Shown here: one piece after another, positions 2,963-17,329 of the stretch | Numbering within the stretch: the stretch's first letter is position 1 | Layout: every line of letters starts with the position of its first letter | Assembly (NCBI GenBank): GCA_016208315.1 | Contig: JACQYF010000102.1 | Span: 1 to 64,000, forward strand | Source of the DNA: Chloroflexota bacterium | Lineage (GTDB): Bacteria; Chloroflexota; Anaerolineae; UBA4142 | Direction of reading: 5' to 3' | Length of the DNA stretch: 64,000 bases | Program-made: the position numbers and the translations under genes | The notes under the pieces: model-generated | Seen by the model: the letters and a program-made list of their open reading frames with translations, nothing else | The model's database searches: none | Told to the model about the DNA's origin: nothing

Positions 2963-3964
2963 CTAACGACTGCCGAATCCGGCGTCCGGCAGGTACGCGG
3001 GCTGGCATTCCGGGAATCGTTGCAAGGCGATGTTGCGAATCTGAAAGGGTATCTCTTGTTCTTCCCAGTAGGTGCGGTCCACTGGAACCCAGCGCGATAA
3101 CGCTTGCTGCGCCTTGACCAACCAGATCGTCGAGTAGTATTCATTCTTGAGATGATCGCTTTCGCACGGGCACGAACTGGCCCAGCCCATCCACTGCGGA
3201 TAGTAGATCACCATCGCCTCTTTGATCGTCCACGCGGTCGTGATGATTTCGCGTGTCTCTTGCGACACGCGCTGCCACGCCGTGCCTTCGAACAACACCA
3301 TCCCCGCGCCGTATTCGATCAGCCCCAGATGGCTGTAGCCGTAACTGCAACTCGGACGCTCGCGCACCAAATGGACCGACTTGATGCGGCTCAATGCTTC
3401 ATAGAGCGTCGTCCGGCTCAGCGGCGGGCCGTCGGTCTGCCAATGCAATGTGATTTCCGACTCGGGCGGTAGCGCAAAGTCGCCGATTCGCGGAATCCAT
3501 TTCGTAACCGCGTGAATCAGCCAATCCTCGCGACCCTCGAAGCGCGTATAGCGCAAATGCATAGGATCGAAGAGCCACGTCAAGGCGCGATCCCGCTCCT
3601 CCTGATTCATTACCTCCCATTTCCACGTCACGCCATTGCTATGCGTTCGGTCCTGCGGATCAAACGTCGCAACGACGACGCCGGCCGCGTTCCTGTATTC
3701 GACCGCGACGCAATCGGTTTGCGAGTCCACGTCGGGGCGCCGCGTCAGCCCGGGCAGATGCGGGACCGGGACCGGCGAGGGGCACGGACTGGGCACAACG
3801 CGGACCGATGGCGTCGCGGCTGCGCGCGCCGGCGCGGGCGTCGGCGTGACGCGCGGCGCGCAGGCGAGCAACAGGGCGATGGCACTGACTAGCAGAGCGT
3901 AGACCGGAAGGACAAAACGAGCTTTTCCGCGAATCGCGCGAATCGCGCGAATCGCGCGAATCAG
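2963..3964 (-). CDS. Putative lipoprotein of unknown function, start unresolved
   Basis: About 333 residues from a possible CTG start. A hydrophobic stretch ending in LLLACA looks like a lipoprotein signal with lipobox cysteine, followed by a Pro/Thr/Ala-rich linker (TPTPAPARAAATPS). The rest is soluble with many Trp and Cys residues (for example SSCPCESD and RPSCSYGYSH) and matches no family I recognise. The frame stays open upstream to a TTG inside the previous gene, but that extension is translated palindrome (3977-4096), and only poor GTG codons lie in it. Either a non-standard start is used or the element has displaced the true 5' end. It follows the cytochrome b gene on the same strand. 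Confidence 0.6.
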   Translation of the reverse strand: MIRAIRAIRAIRGKARFVLPVYALLVSAIALLLACAPRVTPTPAPARAAATPSVRVVPSPCPSPVPVPHLPGLTRRPDVDSQTDCVAVEYRNAAGVVVATFDPQDRTHSNGVTWKWEVMNQEERDRALTWLFDPMHLRYTRFEGREDWLIHAVTKWIPRIGDFALPPESEITLHWQTDGPPLSRTTLYEALSRIKSVHLVRERPSCSYGYSHLGLIEYGAGMVLFEGTAWQRVSQETREIITTAWTIKEAMVIYYPQWMGWASSCPCESDHLKNEYYSTIWLVKAQQALSRWVPVDRTYWEEQEIPFQIRNIALQRFPECQPAYLPDAGFGSR

Positions 3965-4832: not shown

Positions 4833-5574
4833 GTTGCTCCTTGCTCTCCGCCGCGGCCAATTGTTTCTCGCGCACGTGCCGCCGCCGGGCGATGATGAAC
4901 GACAGGCCGGTCACGACGAGGGCCGTCAACGAGAGTCCCGCCGACGCGGGCTGGACGATGTTCTGCCACGCGTCGAGCGTTGCGGGCAATTGGGGATTTT
5001 CGGGCAAGCCATACACACCGGGTTTGTCGAGCAACATCATCACCGCGCCCAACCCGCCCAACTCGGTCTCGCCATACAATTGCGCCGCGGGATAGCGCGC
5101 CCGAACCATCGCGAGTCGCGCCTTGATGTCCGCGACGATTTGCTCGCGCGCGCCGAAACGGATCGCCTGGCTCGGGCAGGTCTGGGCGCACCACGGCGTC
5201 TGTCCCTCTTTGACCAACTCAAAACATGCTACGCATTTGGACACGTGCTCGTCGGCGATACTCGGAATCTTGAATGGGCAAGCGTCGGTACAGTAACCGC
5301 ACGCGCTGCACTTGTCGGCTTGGACGACGGTCAGCCCGTTCCATTTTGAGAGCGCGCCGGTCGGACAGACCTGGACGCACGCGGCTTGTTCGCAGTGCAG
5401 GCAGCGGCGTTGCAGAAACAGCCCGGCGAGATTCGGCATCTGTCCCCGCACCGCCTCGGATATGGCGATGTAGCGCACACCGCGCGGCAGTTCGTGCCCC
5501 GTCTTGCACGCGACCGCGCACGCCTCGCAGCCGATGCAGCGGTCGAGATCAATTGAGAAAGCATAGCGCGTCAC
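4825..5574 (-). CDS. Four-cluster 4Fe-4S electron-transfer subunit (DmsB/PsrB/FdhB type)
   Basis: 249 residues with four cysteine clusters: CIGCEACAVACK, CLHCEQAACVQVCP, CSACGYCTDACP and CVACF...CAQTCP. This is the usual arrangement in Fe-S subunits of membrane molybdopterin oxidoreductases. A single C-terminal membrane helix (LSLTALVVTGLSFIIARR) resembles the FdnH anchor. It wires the Mo subunit to the cytochrome b subunit. The gene overlaps the Mo subunit by 4 bp and the cytochrome b gene by 8 bp. Confidence 0.92.
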   Translation of the reverse strand: MTRYAFSIDLDRCIGCEACAVACKTGHELPRGVRYIAISEAVRGQMPNLAGLFLQRRCLHCEQAACVQVCPTGALSKWNGLTVVQADKCSACGYCTDACPFKIPSIADEHVSKCVACFELVKEGQTPWCAQTCPSQAIRFGAREQIVADIKARLAMVRARYPAAQLYGETELGGLGAVMMLLDKPGVYGLPENPQLPATLDAWQNIVQPASAGLSLTALVVTGLSFIIARRRHVREKQLAAAESKEQHE

Positions 5575-7871
5575 GTCTCACTCCTCACCAACTTGACAAA
5601 GTTCACGCGCAGTCCGGCGCCGCCGCTGATGGGATCGAGGACGTAGCGCGTTTGCAGTCCGGCGTCGCTTGCGCCGCGCCGGTGCGCGCGGCTCAGGCCC
5701 GCGGCATCGTGCCCAAAACCGTGGACCAGATACACGGCATCGGCGCGAATCCGCGGCGTGGCCTTGACCTTGATCGGCCCACTGCGCGCGCCGTCCTGGT
5801 TTTCGAGGAGGACGCGGTCGCCGCTCTTGAAACCGAGTTTGGCGGCGATTGCTTCGTTGATCCACAGATCGTTTTCCGCGCAGAATTCGTTGAGCACCGG
5901 CGTGTTCTGCGTGCGCGCGAAGGTGTGCACGCGGCTGCGCCCGTAGAGCAGGCGCACGTAGCCCGCGGGCGGTTCCGCGGTCGGCTCGTATTCCGGCAGC
6001 GGCTTGAGCTTGGCTTTTTCCAGCGCGGCGGAATACAATTCGATTTTGCCGCTCTCGGTCGCAAAGGGTGTCGAGTTTTCTTTTTCGAAATCCTCCAGCC
6101 ACGGCTTGCCTTTTTGGATCGCAATGCCATTCTGCGCGCGCAGCTTGTCGAGATTCAGGCCGAGCGAGCTGAGCCGCCGGTTGAGATATTCCTCGGCCGA
6201 TTGCCAGGGAAAGAAATCTTCCAGGCCCAACCGCATCCCGAGTTCACGCACGATCCACCACGCGGGCTTGCTCTGCGCGTACGGCTCGACCGCGGGTTCG
6301 CGCAGCGCGATGTACGGCGTCTTGTGCGCGCAGGCCCATAATTCGTCGTAGCGTTCGAGATAGGTCGCTTCCGGCAGCACCACGTCGGCCCACGCGAGAT
6401 GGTCTTGCGGCAGCACGTCCACCGCCATGACGAAATCGAGATTCTCCAGCGCCGCTTTCGTGCGCGGCACGTTGGGAAGCGTATGGAAAAGACCGGTACC
6501 GTAGCAAATCAGCCCTTTGATGGGATACGGCTTGCCGGTGACCATCGGCTCGATCAATTCTTGAATCGCCGTGCCGCCGCGCAAAAATTTTTCGCGCGCG
6601 CCGTCGGCCCGCACCTTGCCCGTCGGTCCAGGAGGCAACCCGGCCTCCTCGCCAGCCGCGGCGCTTCAGCCGCCCGCGCCGCTGGTCGCGGCGAAAGGCG
6701 GATGGGGGATTTCCTCCAGGTACGGCGGCTTGTTGAAATACATTCCGCCCGGTCGCCCGTACGCGCCGAGGAGCGCGTTGACGATGTATGCCGCGCGCAT
6801 CCGCTGCGTATCGTTGCCGTACCACACCACGTGCCGCCCCGGGACGATGAGCGCTTGGGGATGCGCGCGGCCCATCTCGCGCGCCGAATTGCGGATCTGG
6901 TCCGCCGGCAGGTCGGTGATCTGCGCGGCCCACTCGGGCGTAAATGGCTTGACGTGCTCGACCAGTTTGTCAAACCCGGTCGTCCACTTGGCGATGAATT
7001 CCTGGTCAATCAGTTTTTCGGCGATGACGACGTTCGTCCACGCCAACAAGAGCGCGGTGTCGGTTCCCGGTTTGATCGGCAGCCAGTAATCCGCTTTCAT
7101 CGCGACCGAAGAAAAGCGCGGGTCCACGACGATCAGCTTGGCGCCGCGGGCGCGCGCGTTCGCCAGATCCTGCATCAGCGTGTTGCGCGTGTCCTCGCCG
7201 ATATGTGTCCCGATGAGCGTGAGCACGCGCGCGTTCTCCCAATCCACCGGTTCGTGATTTCCAAGCGTGCGGCCAAAGGTGAGGAGCGCGGCTTCTTCGC
7301 GCGGCGCGGTACACATCGTCACCGAGGGCTTGGCCGAGTTGGGCGAACCCCAGGCCTGGGACAAATAATCGGTGAACCAGAAATCGCCGCTGGTGTGACC
7401 GAAGAACGCGACGGCTTCCGGCCCGTATTGGTCTTTGATTTTCAACATTTGCTGCGCCGACAAGTCGAGCGCCTCTTCCCAGCTCGCGCTTCTAAATTTG
7501 CCTTCGCCGCGCGCCCCGGTACGAATCAGCGGCTGCGTGAGCCGGTCGGGATCGTAATTGAACGAAACGCCCGCCTGCCCGCGCGCGCACAGCATCCCGC
7601 GCGATTTCGGATCCTGCGGATTGCCGTCAATTTTGTACACGCGGCCGTTCACGCTTTGGACGATGATCCCGCAGCGCCAGGGACAAATATCGCAATAGTT
7701 GTAGGTCGTTTTGATTTGTCCGGAACGGTACCAGGGAGCAGGCGCTCCGCCCAATCTTGCCAGAGTTTGCCCCAAAGAGCGGAGGGTCCCGTTCGCCATG
7801 ATAGCGCCGACGCCCGACCCGGACGTCTTGAGAAATCGGCGGCGCGTGAGTTTCCAAGCGTCGTGCGGCAT
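5571..7871 (-). CDS. Molybdopterin oxidoreductase catalytic subunit (PsrA/PhsA/FdhA family) with in-frame TGA at codon 402
   Basis: Starts MPHDAWKLTRRRFLK with a Tat motif and a strong AGGAAAGG site before the ATG. An N-terminal 4Fe-4S site is visible (CDICPWRCG...LCARG), and VTMCTAPREEA holds the likely Mo ligand Cys. The frame is interrupted only by TGA at 6666-6668, between FAATSGAGG and SAAAGEEAG. Reading through gives 766 residues, a normal length, in one frame with every family domain present. A hairpin follows the TGA (see 6630-6649). So this could be a selenoprotein whose Sec is not the Mo ligand, a nonsense mutation or a sequence error. It is the first gene of an operon with Fe-S and cytochrome b subunits. 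The substrate is unknown; polysulfide, thiosulfate or formate-like chemistry fits the family. Confidence 0.8.
6630..6649 (-). promoter_or_regulatory. Candidate SECIS hairpin downstream of the in-frame TGA
   Basis: On the minus strand a perfect 7-bp stem AGGAGGC/GCCTCCT carries the 6-nt loop CGGGTT. The loop begins 23 nt after the TGA and has G as its second base. This fits the published bacterial SECIS rules of short spacing and a G in the first two loop positions. There is no bulged U. GC-rich DNA makes such stems common, so the support is moderate. Confidence 0.4.
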
Positions 7872-9832: not shown

Positions 9833-10162
9833 ATGTCGCAATCCATCTTCGATCTCCAAGCTCAGTTGTGCCACACCATGGCGAATGCCGCGCGCTTGCG
9901 CATCGTCCATTGTCTGCGCGAAGGTCCGCGGAGCGTCGGCGAGATTGCCGCGGCGACCGGTTATGCCCAGCCCAAAGTATCGCAGCATCTGGCGCTCCTC
10001 CGCAACCACGGCATCGTCTCCGCAAAGCGCCAGGGCAGTGAGATCATTTATCAGATTGCCAGCCCCAAGATTGTCCGCGTCTGCGATTTGATGCGCGAGG
10101 TGTTGGCCGAGCAAGCTGCCGAGCGGTCCGAGTTGGTTTTGGCCTTGCAATCGGGCAAGTAA
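9833..10162 (+). CDS. ArsR-family winged-helix regulator
   Basis: 109 residues with the ArsR fold (LCHTMANAARLRIVHCLREG, VGEIAAATGYAQPKVSQHLALLRNHGIV, GSEIIYQIASPKI). One cysteine lies in helix 3 (VHCLREG) and one near the C-terminus (VCDLMREVL), so metal, sulfide or persulfide sensing is possible but unproven. It is co-transcribed with the PocR gene and precedes the sulfur-related operon. Confidence 0.9.
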   Translation: MSQSIFDLQAQLCHTMANAARLRIVHCLREGPRSVGEIAAATGYAQPKVSQHLALLRNHGIVSAKRQGSEIIYQIASPKIVRVCDLMREVLAEQAAERSELVLALQSGK

Positions 10163-10297: not shown

Positions 10298-11188
10298 ATG
10301 TCACGAAAACACATCGGATTTTTCTTGCTCGCGGGAGCGATGTTGGCGGTGATCGCTTTCCTCGCGTGGCCGCGGCCGGCGTCGGCGCAGTGCGGCTCGT
10401 CCGCATCCTCGTGCCGGAACTGCCACGAGGTCAAGAAACAATACCCGGTCAACACCAAAGGCGTATGGCATACCTCGCATGCCTTTGGCGATTTTTGCGA
10501 ATTCTGCCACGCGGGCAACGTGAAAGCGAAAGACAAAGCGGCCGCCCATACCGGTCTCATCGGTCCCTTGTCGGACGTCAAAGGGAGCTGCAATTCTTGC
10601 CATCCGAACGATTACGTGGATCGCGCCAAGAAATTTGCGGATACCTTGGGCGTTGAGATCGGCTTAGGAGGGGCGCCCGCGCGGACGATTGCCTCGGCAA
10701 GCGGAACCGGCGAACCTGCCGGCGACGGCATAGCGCCTTGCGGTTCCGGAACGAACGGCGGACAGATCATTGACCTGAACAAAATCTATGCCGCCGGCAT
10801 GAACGACGTTCCCCCGACCAACGTCGGCAATATCGTTCTGCTCGTTATGATCGGCGCAACGGTGTTCACCTTTGGCGGACTGGCCGCGCACTATGAGCAT
10901 CCCCTCGAACGCGGCATGGCGGCGTGGCGCAATCTGTTGGCGACTCCCGCGCCGGCGGCCGCGCCCAGCGACACGCGTCCCGAACTCGCCGCGCTGGCGC
11001 CGCTGCTCGCGGCGAACGATGCCAACACGCTGCGCGCGGTGACGCAAATCCTATCCGACCGCGAGAACGGCCCCAAGATTTTGCAGGCGCTCGGCCATCT
11101 GGATCTGCAAACTCTCGCCGCGCTGGGCGAGAGCGATCAGAAAGCCCTGACCGCGTTATTGGCACTCACAAAGGAAATGACAACGTAA
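10298..11188 (+). CDS. Triheme c-type cytochrome with membrane anchor
   Basis: 296 residues. An N-terminal signal/anchor ends near ASAQC. Three CXXCH sites (CRNCH, CEFCH, CNSCH) lie within residues 40-105. A membrane helix (VGNIVLLVMIGATVFTFGGL, about 185-205) is followed by an Ala/Leu-rich, probably cytoplasmic tail. It likely carries electrons on the periplasmic face. It is the first gene of the run leading to YeeE/YedE and the PsrABC-like oxidoreductase, so a role in sulfur-compound respiration is a reasonable inference. I recognise no named ortholog. Confidence 0.85.
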   Translation: MSRKHIGFFLLAGAMLAVIAFLAWPRPASAQCGSSASSCRNCHEVKKQYPVNTKGVWHTSHAFGDFCEFCHAGNVKAKDKAAAHTGLIGPLSDVKGSCNSCHPNDYVDRAKKFADTLGVEIGLGGAPARTIASASGTGEPAGDGIAPCGSGTNGGQIIDLNKIYAAGMNDVPPTNVGNIVLLVMIGATVFTFGGLAAHYEHPLERGMAAWRNLLATPAPAAAPSDTRPELAALAPLLAANDANTLRAVTQILSDRENGPKILQALGHLDLQTLAALGESDQKALTALLALTKEMTT

Positions 11189-11273: not shown

Positions 11274-11798
11274 ATGCTCTCTCTACTGAAACAAAAAGAA
11301 TGGTCCCCCTATCTCGCGGGCGCGCTGCTCGGCGTCGTCTACATTCTTGGGATTGCCTTCACGGGCGTGATTCCCGGCGCGTCCGGCGCGTTCGAGAATG
11401 TCGCGGGGCTGATCGCCCAAGTGATCGCGCCGGCCCTGGCGGCGAACACGTATTTCAAGTTCGTCATGCCGCCGGAGATTTCGTGGGAGGTCATCATGCT
11501 CGCGGGCGTGTTCGCGGGCGCGTTCGTCTCGGCGAAATTATCCGGTGATTTCAAACTGGCCGCGGTGCCGGACGCGCAATGGCGCAAGGTGTTCGGCTCG
11601 TCCATCTGGAAACGCTGGGCAATCGCGTTTCTCGGCGGCATCATCCTCGAATACGGCGCCGGCATCGCGGGCGGCTGCACGAGTGGGCTGGCGGTCGGCG
11701 GCGGCTTGTTCCTCGCGCCCTCGGCCTTTCTCTTCATGGCGGGCATGTTCGCTTCCGGCATTCCCACCGCGCTGATCCTATATCGGAGAAAATTCTAA
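11274..11798 (+). CDS. YeeE/YedE sulfur-transporter family membrane protein, first half
   Basis: 174 residues, about five membrane helices, starting MLSLLKQKEWSPYL after GAAAGGTG. The conserved GIAGGCTSGLAVGGG holds one of the functional cysteines of the family. Characterised members such as YeeE/TsuA import thiosulfate by passing it between cysteines. Here the usual two-fold protein is split over two genes, as in many bacteria, and the stop overlaps the next start (TAATG). The partner carries the second motif with TGA in place of Cys. Confidence 0.9.
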   Translation: MLSLLKQKEWSPYLAGALLGVVYILGIAFTGVIPGASGAFENVAGLIAQVIAPALAANTYFKFVMPPEISWEVIMLAGVFAGAFVSAKLSGDFKLAAVPDAQWRKVFGSSIWKRWAIAFLGGIILEYGAGIAGGCTSGLAVGGGLFLAPSAFLFMAGMFASGIPTALILYRRKF

Positions 11799-12355
11799 TG
11801 GGCGACATTCTATTTCCTCTCGTGCTCGGGTTTGCGTTTGGCTGGGCGCTGCAAAAAGCCGGGCTGACCAAGTATCACAAGATCGTCAACGTATTTCGGT
11901 TCACCGATCTCGCCGTGCTGAAATTCATGATGACCTCCCTCGCCGTCGCGATGGTTGGCACGTTCGCGCTGAGTACCTTCGGTCTGATCAGTCTGCCGGC
12001 CGTGCCCGCGACCTACGTCGTCGGCAATCTCGTCGGCGGGCTGATATTTGGCGTCGGCATGGCCGGCGCCGGTTTCTGACCGGGCACTTGTGTCGCTGGC
12101 AGCGGCCAAGGTAATCTCGACTACTTGATCCCCGGTCTCCTCGGTTTCTTGACGGGCGCGTTGGTCTACGGCGCGACGTACCCGAGCGTATTTCCGGCCA
12201 TCTCGAAAATCGCCAACCTCGGCAGCGTCATTCTGCCCACCGTATTCGACGTGAATTTGTGGCTCACGATTCTGTTGTTCGTCCTAATTACGCTTACGCT
12301 GTTTTATTTCCTCGAGCGGCATGGCGCGCTGCGGAACGATAAAGTCAATTCGTAA
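11798..12355 (+). CDS. YeeE/YedE (DUF6691-type) second half, probable selenoprotein with Sec at codon 94
   Basis: 185 residues if TGA at 12077-12079 is read as an amino acid. It starts MGDILFPLVLGFAFGW and has about five membrane helices. The TGA lies in GVGMAGAGF-TGA-PGTCVAGSGQG, exactly where this family has its conserved cysteine in the CPGT motif. The frame continues without a shift into normal family sequence (YLIPGLLGFLTGALVYG...). A SECIS-like hairpin follows at 12087-12110. The protein forms a transporter with the preceding gene, for thiosulfate or a selenium/sulfur species. A gene finder that stops at TGA would report two fragments. Confidence 0.85.
12087..12110 (+). promoter_or_regulatory. 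Bacterial SECIS-like hairpin
   Basis: A lower stem CTTG/CAAG, a single bulged U (12091), an upper 6-bp stem GTCGCT/AGCGGC and the apical loop GGC. The loop begins 18 nt after the TGA, and its first base is G. The bulged U, the loop G and the spacing match my recollection of the E. coli fdhF element. The hairpin lies wholly inside conserved coding sequence. Confidence 0.75.
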
Positions 12356-12380: not shown

Positions 12381-14594
12381 ATGAGCGATGAAATAAAAGT
12401 TGGGGACGTTTTCCCGTGGGAGCTGTCGCGGCGGCAGTTTCTGGGTTTGAGCGCCACAGCAGCCGGCGCGCTCGCGTTGGGCACGCTGCCGCGCGGTTCG
12501 TCGCCGGCCGCGCCCGCATGCGATGCCCACATGCCGCCGGTCAAGTTCGACCGCGAGGTGTATACGCTGTGCGAACAATGCGTTTGGCGATGCGGGCTGC
12601 GCGCCAAGGTGCTCGACGGCAAGGTCTATAAACTCGACGGCAATCCGCATCATCCGCATTCGAATGGGATGCTCTGCCCGCGCGGCCAAGCCGGAATTGC
12701 CGCGCTGTACGATCCCGACCGTCTGCAATTCCCCATGATCCGCGCCGGCGATCGCGGCAGCGGGCTGTGGAAGCGCGTGACCTGGGCCGAGGCGCTCGAC
12801 TATACCGCGCAGAAAATGCAAGCGCTCAAGGAGCAATACGGCGCGGAATCCATGATCTTTAGTTCGACGCACAACCTCGCCCAGACACAGTTCGAGAATC
12901 TGTTGCGCGCCTACGGTTCGCCCAACTATGGCACCCAGCGCTCGCAATGTTTCAACGCGATGATCATCGCCAACCTTTTGACCTTTGGGATGCAAGAGCC
13001 GGACCGCGATTACTCGGCGGCCAAATACATCATCTACGCGGGACGCAATCTGGCGGAAGCCATTTCCAATTCCGAAACGCAAGCTATGATCGAGGCGCTG
13101 GCGCGCGGCGCTCGCGTCGTTTTGCTCGATCCGCGTTTTACCAAGAGCGCATCCAAAGCGACCGAGTGGCTGCCGATTCGCCCCGGAACCGACCTCGCCT
13201 TTTTCCTCGCGATGCTGAACGTCTTGATCGCGGAAGGATTGTACGACAAGGATTTCGTCGGCCAGCACACCCTCGGTTTCGACGAGGTGGCCCAGGCGAT
13301 CAAACCCTATACGCCGGAATGGGCGGCCAGCAAGACCGAAATTCCCGCGGCGACCATCCGCCGCATCGCGCGCGAGTTTGCGCTCGCCGCGCCGCACGCG
13401 TTCGTCCACAACAATTGGCGCACCTCGAATTTCGTCAACTCGTTCCAGGCGGAGCGCGCGATGGCCGTCGTCAACGCCATCTCCGGCAACTGGCAACAGC
13501 CCGGCGGCCTGTTCCCTTCGGCGGGGGAGAGCGGCGTAGCGCTTGGCTCGATTCCGCAACCCGCGTACCCGCGCGTCACCGCCCTGCGGCTCGACGGCGT
13601 GCCGTGGAAATTCCCCCTCGTCCCGCTCGAGATCGGCGTCTTCCAAGAAGTGCGTGACGCGATCCTCGCGGAAAAACCGTATCCCGCGCGGGCGTGGCTC
13701 GTCTATCGCCAGAATCCCATCGCCGCGCTGCCCGAGCGCCGCAAAACGCTACAAGCGTTCGGCAAATTGGATTTCGTCGTCACGATTGATACGACGATGA
13801 ACGATACCGCGTGGTTCGGCGACGTGGTATTGCCCGAAGCGAGTTACCTCGAACGGTACGATCCGCTCGCGGTGGTCGGGGATGCGGTATTCATTCGCCA
13901 GCCCGCCGTGCCCGCAATCGGCGAGAGCAAATCCGGCCTGTGGATTTTCAAAGAATTGGGCACGCGCCTCGGCTTGAAGGATTACTTCCAATATCAAGAC
14001 GAAGAAGATTACTTGCGACAACAACTCAAGCCGCTCGGAATTACTCTCGAGGAATTGAAAACGAAAGGACATTATCGCCCGCCCGCGTCCGCGGACGCGA
14101 ACGCCGAGTTGAAATTCGATACGCCGAGCGGCAAGATCGAATTATCGTCCGCGTCGCTCGCGAAAGCGAATTACCCCGCGGTTCCGGTTTGGGAAGAGCC
14201 GCCCGCGCCGCTCGCCGACCAGTTCTACCTATTGACCGGCAAGGTCGCGCAGCACACGCAGTGCAGTACGCAAAACAATCGTCTGCTGCACGAATTGTTC
14301 CCGAGGAATACCGTCTGGATTCACACCACGCCGGCCGCGGAGCGTGGCATCAAAGACGGCGATTGGGTCTGGGTCGAGAGCCAGGCGGGCAAGGTAAAGA
14401 TCCACGCGACCGTCACCGAAGGCATCCGTCCCGACTGTGTCTACATGACGCCGGGCTTTGGGCATCTCTCGAAAGGGACGCGCACGTCATACGGCGAGGG
14501 CGTAAGCGATTCGGATTTGCACGTGACCTTCACCGATCCGGTGAGCGGCGGACAGGCATTGTCACAAACGTTCGTCAAAGTTTACAATTCGTAG
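12381..14594 (+). CDS. Molybdopterin oxidoreductase catalytic subunit, PsrA/PhsA-like
   Basis: 737 residues, uninterrupted. Tat signal (SRRQFLGLSATAAGALALG), N-terminal 4Fe-4S site (CEQCVWRCG...LCPRG), and RSQCFNAM with the probable Mo-ligand Cys. Two Mo-bis-PGD domains and the C-terminal dinucleotide-binding barrel follow (TGKVAQHTQCSTQNN, TPGFGHLSKG). It works in or facing the periplasm with the next two gene products as a PsrABC-type complex on polysulfide, thiosulfate, tetrathionate or a similar oxoanion. It is related to the product of 5571-7871 but lacks that protein's TGA loop. Confidence 0.9.
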   Translation: MSDEIKVGDVFPWELSRRQFLGLSATAAGALALGTLPRGSSPAAPACDAHMPPVKFDREVYTLCEQCVWRCGLRAKVLDGKVYKLDGNPHHPHSNGMLCPRGQAGIAALYDPDRLQFPMIRAGDRGSGLWKRVTWAEALDYTAQKMQALKEQYGAESMIFSSTHNLAQTQFENLLRAYGSPNYGTQRSQCFNAMIIANLLTFGMQEPDRDYSAAKYIIYAGRNLAEAISNSETQAMIEALARGARVVLLDPRFTKSASKATEWLPIRPGTDLAFFLAMLNVLIAEGLYDKDFVGQHTLGFDEVAQAIKPYTPEWAASKTEIPAATIRRIAREFALAAPHAFVHNNWRTSNFVNSFQAERAMAVVNAISGNWQQPGGLFPSAGESGVALGSIPQPAYPRVTALRLDGVPWKFPLVPLEIGVFQEVRDAILAEKPYPARAWLVYRQNPIAALPERRKTLQAFGKLDFVVTIDTTMNDTAWFGDVVLPEASYLERYDPLAVVGDAVFIRQPAVPAIGESKSGLWIFKELGTRLGLKDYFQYQDEEDYLRQQLKPLGITLEELKTKGHYRPPASADANAELKFDTPSGKIELSSASLAKANYPAVPVWEEPPAPLADQFYLLTGKVAQHTQCSTQNNRLLHELFPRNTVWIHTTPAAERGIKDGDWVWVESQAGKVKIHATVTEGIRPDCVYMTPGFGHLSKGTRTSYGEGVSDSDLHVTFTDPVSGGQALSQTFVKVYNS

Positions 14595-14650: not shown

Positions 14651-15211
14651 ATGGCATCAGAGAATAGAAAGAAACGTTGGGGTTTTGTGATCGAGGTCAA
14701 GCGCTGCATTGATTGCAAGGCGTGCCTGGTCGCGTGCGAGATCGAGAACCAGGTGCCGCTCGGACATCATCGCAATTGGATCGGTCGCGAGGGGCCGACC
14801 GGCCAATTTCCGGCCCTCGGCCTGAAATTCGAGCCGGGCAACTGCATGCACTGCGAAAATCCGCCCTGCGAACGCGTTTGCCCGACCGGCGCGACCTATC
14901 AGCGCGCAGACGGACTGGTCTTGGTGGATGACGAGAAATGTATCGGCTGTCGCTATTGCATCCAGGCGTGTCCCTACGATGCGCGCTATTTCGATCCAGC
15001 GCGCGGCATCGTTGACAAGTGTACCTTTTGCGTTCACCGGCTCGACGCGGGACAACCGCCCGCGTGCGTGGAAACTTGCGTCGGCGGCGCGCGACACTAT
15101 GGCGATCTGAACGACCCGCGCAGCGAGGTTTCGAAACTCCTCGCGACGCACGACCATTACGTGCAATACGCCGAGGCGGGGACGGAGCCGAAGGTGTACT
15201 ACATTGCGTAG
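14651..15211 (+). CDS. Four-cluster 4Fe-4S subunit (PsrB/NrfC type)
   Basis: 186 residues from MASENRKKRW, with GAGG upstream. The frame is open further upstream but only as a shadow of the previous gene. Cysteine clusters are CIDCKACLVACE, CMHCENPPCERVCP, CIGCRYCIQACP and CTFC...CVETC. It links the Mo subunit to the NrfD-like membrane subunit encoded next. No signal peptide is seen, so it is probably exported with its Tat-dependent partner. Confidence 0.93.
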   Translation: MASENRKKRWGFVIEVKRCIDCKACLVACEIENQVPLGHHRNWIGREGPTGQFPALGLKFEPGNCMHCENPPCERVCPTGATYQRADGLVLVDDEKCIGCRYCIQACPYDARYFDPARGIVDKCTFCVHRLDAGQPPACVETCVGGARHYGDLNDPRSEVSKLLATHDHYVQYAEAGTEPKVYYIA

Positions 15212-15223
15212 TAGGGAGCTTCT

Positions 15224-16204
15224 ATGGAATGGGGTTTACTCGTCGTCAACTATCTTTTTCTCGCGGGCGTGAGCGCGGGCGCGTTTGCGATGTCGAGTTT
15301 TGCGACCTATCTGGGCGGGCCGCATTTTCGGCGCGTGGCGCGCATCGGCGCATTGATCGCGCCGTGGCCCGTGTCCATCGGCGTCGCGGTGCTGGTGCTT
15401 GACCTGGGCCGCCCGCTGGCGTTTTGGCGCTTGTTCATGACGGTGCAATTCACATCGCCCATGTCCATCGGGACGTGGCTGCTCACGGTTTTTGTATTGC
15501 TCAGTCTCGCGTACGCCGCGCTGTGGCTGCCCGCGCCGCTGGACAATCTGCTCCGCGTGCCAACTCATCCTTCACATTGGCGGCATTTTACGCGTTGGAC
15601 GCCGCTCACTCCGGCGGCGATTCGCCGCGCGCGCGCCGTCCTGGCAATGATCGGTTTCCCGCTCTCGCTCGGCGTCGGCATTTACACCGGCATTCTGCTC
15701 GGCGCGATTCCGTCGCGGCCGTTCTGGAACACGCCGATGCTGGCGCAACTATTCCTCTTCTCGGCCATGTCGTCGGGCACGGCGACGGTGCTGCTGGCGA
15801 CCGCGCTCGCCGGCGCGCGGCACGAAACCGGATTAGAAGCGGAGCGCCGCCTGTTGATTTCGACTGACGTGGTGCTCATCGTTCTCGAAATTTTGATGCT
15901 CATCCCATTCTTGCTCCACCACGCGCTTTCGACCTGGAGTTCCGCGTCTTCCATCGAGCTGATCTTCGGCGGCGAATACACGCTCGCGTTTTGGGTCGGC
16001 GTGATTCTGCTTGGGATTCTGCTGCCGCTGGCGATTGAGGTTTACGAGCTTTTTCCGGTCGTGTTAAAGCAAGGCGCGGCGCGCTACCGGCTCGCCTTGA
16101 GCGCGGCCTCGGGCGTGCTGGTGCTCGCGGGCGGTTTCCTCCTGCGCTTTGTATTCGTCTACGCGGGACAGGCGTCGCATTTCCTACCCGTGGTAAACAG
16201 GTAG
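15224..16204 (+). CDS. NrfD/PsrC-family quinol-interacting membrane subunit
   Basis: 326 residues, eight to nine membrane helices, beginning MEWGLLVVNYLFLAGVSAGAF. GVSAGAF and LDLGRPLAFWR are typical of NrfD/PsrC proteins. It anchors the complex and exchanges electrons with the quinone pool without haem. It completes a Psr-type ABC module with the two preceding genes. Confidence 0.92.
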   Translation: MEWGLLVVNYLFLAGVSAGAFAMSSFATYLGGPHFRRVARIGALIAPWPVSIGVAVLVLDLGRPLAFWRLFMTVQFTSPMSIGTWLLTVFVLLSLAYAALWLPAPLDNLLRVPTHPSHWRHFTRWTPLTPAAIRRARAVLAMIGFPLSLGVGIYTGILLGAIPSRPFWNTPMLAQLFLFSAMSSGTATVLLATALAGARHETGLEAERRLLISTDVVLIVLEILMLIPFLLHHALSTWSSASSIELIFGGEYTLAFWVGVILLGILLPLAIEVYELFPVVLKQGAARYRLALSAASGVLVLAGGFLLRFVFVYAGQASHFLPVVNR

Positions 16205-16299
16205 ACAGGTACACAGGTACACAGGTACACAAGGAAATAAGGGAACCTGTCTACCTGTTTACCTGTCTACATGTTTCCTTGTCTACATGCTACGATGTC
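16197..16299. repeat. ACAGGTAGAC palindrome
   Basis: Units of ACAGGTAGACAGGTACAC on the left pair with GTCTACCTGTTTACCTGTCTAC on the right. ACAAGGAAATAAGG sits near the centre. It fills the spacer and runs into the first codons of the next gene, leaving that gene without a recognisable Shine-Dalgarno. Confidence 0.85.
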
Positions 16300-17329
16300 T
16301 AGAATTTGGCGCAAAGAAAAAAGTCTAATCTACGCGCTGCACCCGGAGACCATTCCCGCCAGCGGCGTGCGGTTCACTTACACGTTCGGCCTCGGCGGCA
16401 TTACGATTTTCGCTGCCCTCGTCACGCTCCTCACCGGACTCGCCCTCACCTTTTACTATGTCCCCACGCCCGAAGGCGCGCACGATTCGATCGTTCTCAT
16501 CAATGACGTGGTGAGTTTTGGCGCGATGATGCGCGGCCTGCACTATTGGGCCGCGCAGCTGATGGTGCTCGCGGCGACGCTGCACCTGGCGCGCGTCGTC
16601 TTTACCGGCGGCTATCGCCCGCCGCGCGAACTCAATTGGCTGATCGGGTTGGGGCTGCTGGTCGTCACGCTGCTTTGGGATTTCACCGGCTATGTCTTGC
16701 GCTGGGACGACGGCGCGTACTGGGCGCTCCTCGTCGGCACGAATCTCGTTCGCGAGATTCCGTTCTGGGGCGAAGCGCTCTACCGCGCGCTCGTCGGCGA
16801 CGCGCAGATCGGCGCTAGCGCGCTGCTGCGTTTTTACGGCTGGCACATTTTCGGGCTGACGGTCGCCGGCGTCTTTGGCATGGTCTATCACCTCTGGCGC
16901 TTGAAAAAGGATGGCGGCATCTCGCGTCCGGTGCTCGAACACGCGCAAGTGCGCGAGTTTGTGTCGAAGGACGAACTCTTTTTCCGCGAATTCATCGCCG
17001 CCGCGCTCGTTTCGGCCGCGCTCATCTTGCTCACCGTGCTCATTCAAATTCCCATCGGGCCGGCGGCGACCCTTGACGCCATCGCCGACGTGCGCGCTCC
17101 GTGGATTTTCCTGTGGGTACAGAACCCGCTGCGCGATCTGCCGCCGCTGTGGGCCGGCATCCTCGCGCCGCTCGGCGTTCTGGTCGCGCTCGCGCTCATT
17201 CCCTTTCTCGACCGCCGCGGCCCCGGGCGCGCCATATGGTTCGCGCGCGAACGGTGGAAACCACAAGTGTTGTTGGCGGCGCTCGCGCTGGGTATCATCG
17301 TGCTTAGTTTGCGCGAGGTGTTAAGATGA
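16295..17329 (+). CDS. Cytochrome b, b6-type haem spacing
   Basis: 344 residues from MSRIWRKEKSL. An upstream ATG at 16271 would start inside the palindrome. About eight membrane helices. Two bis-histidine pairs are visible: LHYWAAQLMVLAATLH (13 residues between) and WHIFGLTVAGVFGMVYH (14 between), the spacing of cytochrome b6 rather than bc1 cytochrome b. With the Rieske protein and multihaem cytochrome encoded next it forms a quinol-cytochrome c type complex. Its position directly after the PsrABC module suggests the two complexes work together. Confidence 0.9.
   Translation: MSRIWRKEKSLIYALHPETIPASGVRFTYTFGLGGITIFAALVTLLTGLALTFYYVPTPEGAHDSIVLINDVVSFGAMMRGLHYWAAQLMVLAATLHLARVVFTGGYRPPRELNWLIGLGLLVVTLLWDFTGYVLRWDDGAYWALLVGTNLVREIPFWGEALYRALVGDAQIGASALLRFYGWHIFGLTVAGVFGMVYHLWRLKKDGGISRPVLEHAQVREFVSKDELFFREFIAAALVSAALILLTVLIQIPIGPAATLDAIADVRAPWIFLWVQNPLRDLPPLWAGILAPLGVLVALALIPFLDRRGPGRAIWFARERWKPQVLLAALALGIIVLSLREVLR

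Follow-up and report, generated by a model that had tools for sequence, protein, structure and literature searches.

Gene content of the locus

The window, by which we mean the whole 64,000-nucleotide stretch of a Chloroflexota genome that was analyzed (contig JACQYF010000102.1, assembly GCA_016208315.1), carries a run of plus-strand genes in which the two short halves of a YeeE/YedE-type transporter precede the genes of a Phs/Psr-like respiratory complex. The features under discussion are listed here, with bit scores for profile matches.

9833–10162, plus strand: ArsR-family regulator (PF01022, 61.5 bits)
10298–11188, plus strand: multihaem cytochrome-like protein upstream of pmpA (three CxxCH motifs, no Pfam match)
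11274–11798, plus strand: PmpA-like partner half, with Cys135 in GGCTSG (PF04143, 61.4 bits)
11798–12355, plus strand: PmpB-like half of a YeeE/YedE transporter (185 codons; predicted Sec codon 94, Cys codon 98)
12077–12079, plus strand: in-frame TGA, read here as selenocysteine (TGA 72, TGC 41, TGT 5 of 118 loci)
12087–12110, plus strand: SECIS-type hairpin, from its fold and the contrast between Sec and Cys forms (loop GGC at 12098–12100, bulged U at 12091)
12381–14594, plus strand: PhsA/PsrA-like molybdopterin oxidoreductase (PF00384; NF012032 PhsA 624.4 bits, below the cut-off of 694)
14651–15211, plus strand: iron-sulfur subunit, PsrB/PhsB-like (open frame rich in CxxC, named from its sequence)
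15224–16204, plus strand: NrfD/PsrC-type membrane subunit (PF03916, 178.5 bits)
16271–17329, plus strand: cytochrome b-type protein (PF00033, 129.5 bits)

Genes for a further multihaem protein and a Rieske protein lie downstream in the window. The stop codon of the pmpA-like gene overlaps the ATG of the pmpB-like gene (TAATG). Within the 185-residue PF04143 frame at 11798–12355 there is a single stop, the TGA at 12077–12079, in the context GAGF-TGA-PGTC. The 185-amino-acid read-through product matches PF04143 with 78.4 bits (cut-off, 27) over residues 29–181. Both the reading of the frame and this match, which crosses the TGA, bear out the first-pass annotation of the locus, which had described the frame as continuous except for that codon.

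Codon 94 in related loci

The TGA had been proposed to occupy the position of a cysteine conserved in the family, and its relatives agree. We read codon 94 in 118 related loci, made up of 8 close members of the phylum, the best 80 of 105 named relatives, and 30 loci from another family, a set that contains repeats of one genome between collections. Every locus had TGA (72) or a cysteine codon (46, comprising 41 TGC and 5 TGT), and no other codon occurred; as distinct sequences, these amount to 52 Sec and 33 Cys forms. The 8 close phylum members are the window and 7 loci at 59–66% identity, with TGA in 6 and Cys in 2. One locus that is also listed with a TAA (L018) has that codon as the end of its own gene. 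The search of the phylum gave matches in 21 of 400 genomes, and 19 distant phylum matches (L024–L042, 27–38% identity) were omitted from the codon and hairpin counts. In the other family the gene was present in 38 of 152 genomes; 30 of its 39 matches, those with loci, were read at the codon level, and of the remaining nine, six contain a single TGA and three are free of stops. All six genomes of the window's own family that carry the gene (6 of 14) have the TGA, and a class-wide search found the gene in 37 of 396 genomes (38 matches, of which 27 contain a single TGA and 11 have no stop). Codon-by-codon reading of 23 of these later loci, from the window's own family and class-wide, gave 17 TGA and 6 Cys, some of them already counted. 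A plasmid search returned 6 records, all below 60% identity and none covering 80% of the query.

The surroundings of the codon are also conserved. PGTC follows Sec in all 52 distinct Sec sequences, the usual motif being [FY]UPGTC and that of the window GFUPGTC. The final cysteine of this motif, Cys98, is present in all 52 Sec forms versus 22 of the 33 Cys forms. Residue 102 is Ser in 26 Sec forms, Gly in 24, Cys in 1, Leu in 1, and never Ala, the residue found in 18 of 33 Cys forms; such a bias is as expected if an RNA structure restricts the protein.

These data bear on several readings of the TGA. An error of assembly at 12077–12079 was rejected because other assemblies have the TGA as well. 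An ordinary stop in a truncated or decaying gene would suit the meaning of TGA in the default code and the failure to find selA in this assembly; yet TAA and TAG never stand at this codon, and the part of the protein downstream of the TGA stays conserved in an 8-row alignment. Since none of the 118 loci has anything but TGA or a Cys codon here, we rejected an ordinary stop or pseudogene, a reading that we consider very improbable. The frame would likewise be open under a variant genetic code in which UGA stands for tryptophan or another ordinary residue. However, all 46 loci that lack the TGA have Cys in its place, the genome holds a tRNA-Sec and a selD gene with a TGA in a Sec-like motif, and conservation of the hairpin described below tracks the TGA. 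Since Cys is the sole residue that alternates with TGA, tryptophan recoding was rejected, and we regard any variant code as extremely improbable here. From these comparisons, together with the hairpin and the Sec machinery described below, UGA codon 94 is almost certainly decoded as Sec by SelB-dependent insertion.

A SECIS-type hairpin downstream of the TGA

Bacterial SECIS elements are hairpins that lie 3' of the TGA and have a G starting the loop. The hairpin in the window consists of a CUUG/CAAG lower stem, a bulged U at 12091, and a 6-bp upper stem, and loops across the group begin with G, mostly as GGN or GGUC. The stem, the bulged U, and the form of the loop are as the first-pass annotation had described them. 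Its placement of the hairpin 18 nt after the TGA needs correction: the foot lies 7 nt past the TGA, and it is the loop that begins after an 18-nt gap.

Taken alone, the hairpin of the window is not beyond chance, with a z score of −0.41 against dinucleotide shuffles (63 of 200 fold as well) and a nonsignificant −1.31 against synonymous-codon controls (10% of controls are as stable); its significance comes from the hairpins of its relatives. Selection on the encoded protein might by itself give rise to a hairpin-like fold, and every 33-nt stretch was therefore set against randomized sequences that encode the same amino acids. Under this control the mean z was −1.44 in 42 distinct Sec sequences versus +0.19 in 33 distinct Cys sequences (Mann-Whitney P of about 1e-11, not corrected for kinship), and, taken singly, 12 of the 42 Sec sequences, versus none of the 33 Cys sequences, ranked below the 5% mark of their own controls. 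A hairpin due to the coded protein alone is ruled out by these controls for the group, though not for the window sequence itself.

A fixed nine-pair structure gave a similar contrast. In 25 Sec rows 96.9% of the cells were paired, a value reached by 0 of 500 shuffles, versus 63.2% in 32 Cys rows, where 383 of 500 shuffles were as high; two choices favor the tested structure in this comparison, since it was chosen from the same sequences and since the Sec count omits 10 GGG-TCC (GGUC-loop) rows and L131, which represent another hairpin register. The pair counts drew on L016 and the named plus-strand loci, with no Cys row omitted. The innermost pair is the only one that changes on both sides in the Sec rows (C-G in 16, U-A in 6, A-U in 1, and other in 2).

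Exchange of Sec and Cys in the family

From the 118 loci, the 86 distinct proteins with a length of 150 residues or more were used to build a tree, with residue 94 masked. The best tree implies 12 Sec/Cys changes, 6 of which are forced by well-supported branches; support is weak for 23 of its 83 inner branches, and long-branch attraction may account for the grouping of L105 with L120. At a cut of z −0.5, the hairpin is present in 51 of 53 Sec proteins of the tree versus 3 of 33 Cys proteins. A stricter test used the 6 independent Sec/Cys pairs with good branch support: the hairpin goes with Sec in four of them, with Cys in none, and does not discriminate in the other two (median p, 0.125). The trend is in the expected direction, but the pairs are too few for significance. 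One close pair of loci, L076 with TGT (3761–3763) and L092 with TGA (5280–5282), is 93–94% identical in DNA and has kept the same hairpin. L076 would appear to be a recent Sec-to-Cys change that retains a fossil SECIS.

Selenocysteine machinery in the genome of the window

The genome from which the window comes holds one strong tRNA-Sec match (76 bits; ARAGORN anticodon TCA), two selB matches over the cut-off on different contigs, and, on a contig other than that of the transporter, a selD gene with its own in-frame TGA (CAG-U-ASK). tRNA-Sec, SelB, and SelD are thus all represented. The two selB matches lie at G000:C199:26482-28332 and G000:C100:1907-3016, alongside a single tRNA-Sec over the cut-off and no selA. 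A search for selA in this assembly, which is 93.4% complete with 6.8% contamination, did not find the gene. It was found in all 13 other members of the class that were searched, holders of the Sec form and of the Cys form among them, and in 10 of 14 genomes of the window's family, including all 6 of high quality. Its absence is likeliest to be an assembly gap or a binning mistake; given the 6.8% contamination and two selB matches, a mixed bin is possible. Of the Sec genes on which the first-pass proposal was made to depend, tRNA-Sec, selB, and selD are accounted for, and selA is missing from an incomplete assembly. The proposal itself, a selenocysteine followed by a SECIS element, gains strong support from the Sec/Cys exchange, from the TGA-linked conservation of the hairpin, and from this machinery.

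A PmpB-like half of a probable split sulfur channel

The PmpB-like profile aligns to residues 5–105 of Spirochaeta thermophila TsuA, with codon 94 falling on Cys91, and the PmpA-like gene gives a weak match (E, 0.12) to the second half of TsuA around Cys293. In PMC11582611, PmpB is matched to the N-terminal half of TsuA with Cys91 and PmpA to the C-terminal half with Cys293, both cysteines of TsuA are indispensable, and a PmpAB heterodimer is proposed. TsuA Cys293, Cys91, and Cys22 are described in a row across the membrane in PMC11073785. The gene in the window resembles PmpB in that the Cys91 equivalent is present, as a predicted Sec, and a PmpA-like gene is adjacent. Cys135 of the PmpA-like protein is Cys in all 78 loci with a match.

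PmpAB/YedE1E2 likewise consists of a pair of short proteins, each with a single conserved Cys that is equivalent to Cys91 in PmpB and to Cys293 in PmpA, and YedE1E2 is reported to import zero-valent sulfur (PMC11582611, PMC10812762). The present pair differs in the length of the halves (174 and 185 residues versus about 130), in having a predicted Sec for the Cys of PmpB, and in a cluster that holds a PhsA/PsrA-like reductase. S. thermophila TsuA/YeeE (PDB 6LEO, 8K1R) shares the aligned position, its Cys91 corresponding to Sec94; unlike the split halves here, it is described as one chain with three conserved cysteines. No model of NCBIfam reached its cut-off in a scan. The full-length TsuA models scored 41.6 of 400 bits (NF052577) and 29.4 of 645 bits (NF041049), cut-offs that a half protein cannot be expected to reach. 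An AlphaFold model of the PmpB half was too poor to use (pLDDT 54.3, pTM 0.37).

The gene order is widely kept. Among the best 80 of the 105 relatives, a PmpA match occurs in 78, a PhsA match in 78, and both in 76, and relatives of the upstream cytochrome occur in 74. Of the four loci in this set that lack PmpA or PhsA, three are cut there by a contig end; L121 has 2.4 kb of upstream sequence without a PmpA match. A Cys-form relative with the same PmpA-PmpB-PhsA order (L120) lies in a Neomarinimicrobiota MAG, outside Chloroflexota.

Proposed mechanism and its alternatives

We propose, with a probability of roughly 0.85 for the explanation as a whole, that the gene encodes a bacterial selenoprotein, which forms one half, the PmpB-like one, of a split sulfur channel. 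tRNA-Sec and SelB, acting on the hairpin just 3' of the codon, would decode UGA codon 94 as Sec. The product would pair with the PmpA-like half from the overlapping upstream gene, so that Sec94 would take the place of TsuA Cys91, the central one of the three cysteines along the path, and Cys135 of PmpA that of Cys293. The pair would carry sulfane sulfur, as thiosulfate, polysulfide, or zero-valent sulfur, through the membrane, and this transport would either serve the Phs/Psr-like respiratory complex encoded in the same operon or run together with it. The exchange of Sec and Cys, the conserved hairpin, the machinery, and the gene order are observed; from them we infer how the halves pair, what the substrate is, which way it moves, and whether selenium brings any chemical advantage. 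For the transport chemistry, in which Sec94 and Cys135 would relay thiosulfate or sulfane sulfur from one side of the membrane to the other, we put the chances at about even. The first-pass suggestion that Sec may relay thiosulfate, persulfide, or selenide more reactively than Cys is plausible because of the alignment with Cys91 and the Phs-like operon.

The cargo could instead be a selenium compound destined for the cell's own Sec pathway. Two papers link YedE-like proteins to selenium metabolism (PMC9312934, PMC11582611), and the protein does match seleno-YedE models weakly. Those matches are nevertheless far under their cut-offs (26.7 of 350 and 22.3 of 200 bits), the neighbors are PhsA-like, NrfD, and cytochrome genes, and the selD match is on another contig, so that we consider selenium cargo improbable and a sulfur channel the better reading.

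Within the sulfur channel, Cys98 is a possible selenenyl-sulfide partner of Sec94. Its presence in every one of the 52 distinct Sec sequences, versus 22 of 33 Cys forms, would also fit a role of Sec94 and Cys98 as a channel-gating redox switch or a metal site rather than as a relay. But codon 98 lies inside the hairpin, where RNA constraint may explain the cysteine, and independent pairs give at most three informative cases (median p, 0.5); a switch or metal site seems unlikely to us. A fuller scheme for these Anaerolineae, in which the selenium midway in the channel would carry out chemistry besides transport, Sec94 would attack the incoming sulfane sulfur, Cys98 would resolve the selenenyl-sulfide, and the step would be coupled to the Phs/Psr-like complex of the same operon, is quite unlikely in this complete form.

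A second candidate selenoprotein in the window

On the minus strand, at 5571–7871, the window encodes another PhsA-like molybdopterin oxidoreductase (NF012032, 493.9 bits, under the cut-off of 694) with an in-frame TGA at 6668–6666 in the context GG-U-SAAAGEE. Twelve loci, the window included, have TGA at this codon in ten cases and TGC and TGT in the other two, which are 64% identical; the 35–40% identical paralogs that lie beside PmpB mostly do not align at the site. We take the Cys of SVTMCTAP in this enzyme to be the Mo ligand, and the TGA stands elsewhere. A GGAGGC/GCCUCC hairpin can be seen by eye after the TGA, and its plain fold is not significant (z −0.53). This enzyme is likely a second selenoprotein of the window. 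A further copy in the same genome (G000:C194:26888-29152) is 81% identical and has one TGA.

Relation to known selenoproteins and significance

A YeeE/YedE selenoprotein with the motif GUxSG is already catalogued in the review PMC13188914, and PMC9312934 lists the same accession without the motif. It belongs to the same Pfam family and is listed with one Sec. Its motif differs from the [FY]UPGTC usual here and from the GFUPGTC of the window's PmpB-like protein, a comparison made by the listed motif alone, with which either the Cys91 or the Cys293 column is compatible, GG preceding both in TsuA. The term "Chloroflexi" was not found in the main text of either paper. PMC13188914 credits the selenoprotein to two older papers, PMC2398784 and PMC5029168; "YeeE" was not found in the main text of these or of PMC12013277. 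Among the open-license papers searched, we found no description of a Sec-PmpB case. A YeeE/YedE selenoprotein is known already, then, and the predicted Sec of the PmpB-like half lies in a different motif.

Annotation that is unaware of Sec presumably truncates such genes at residue 93. Selenoproteins are for the most part regarded as redox enzymes (PMC9312934), though several transporter parts are predicted to carry Sec (PMC13188914). Here Sec would occupy the cysteine midway in a sulfur channel. With natural Sec and Cys forms of one gene cluster, separated by at least 6 well-supported changes, the question of why there should be selenium in a sulfur channel becomes directly testable.
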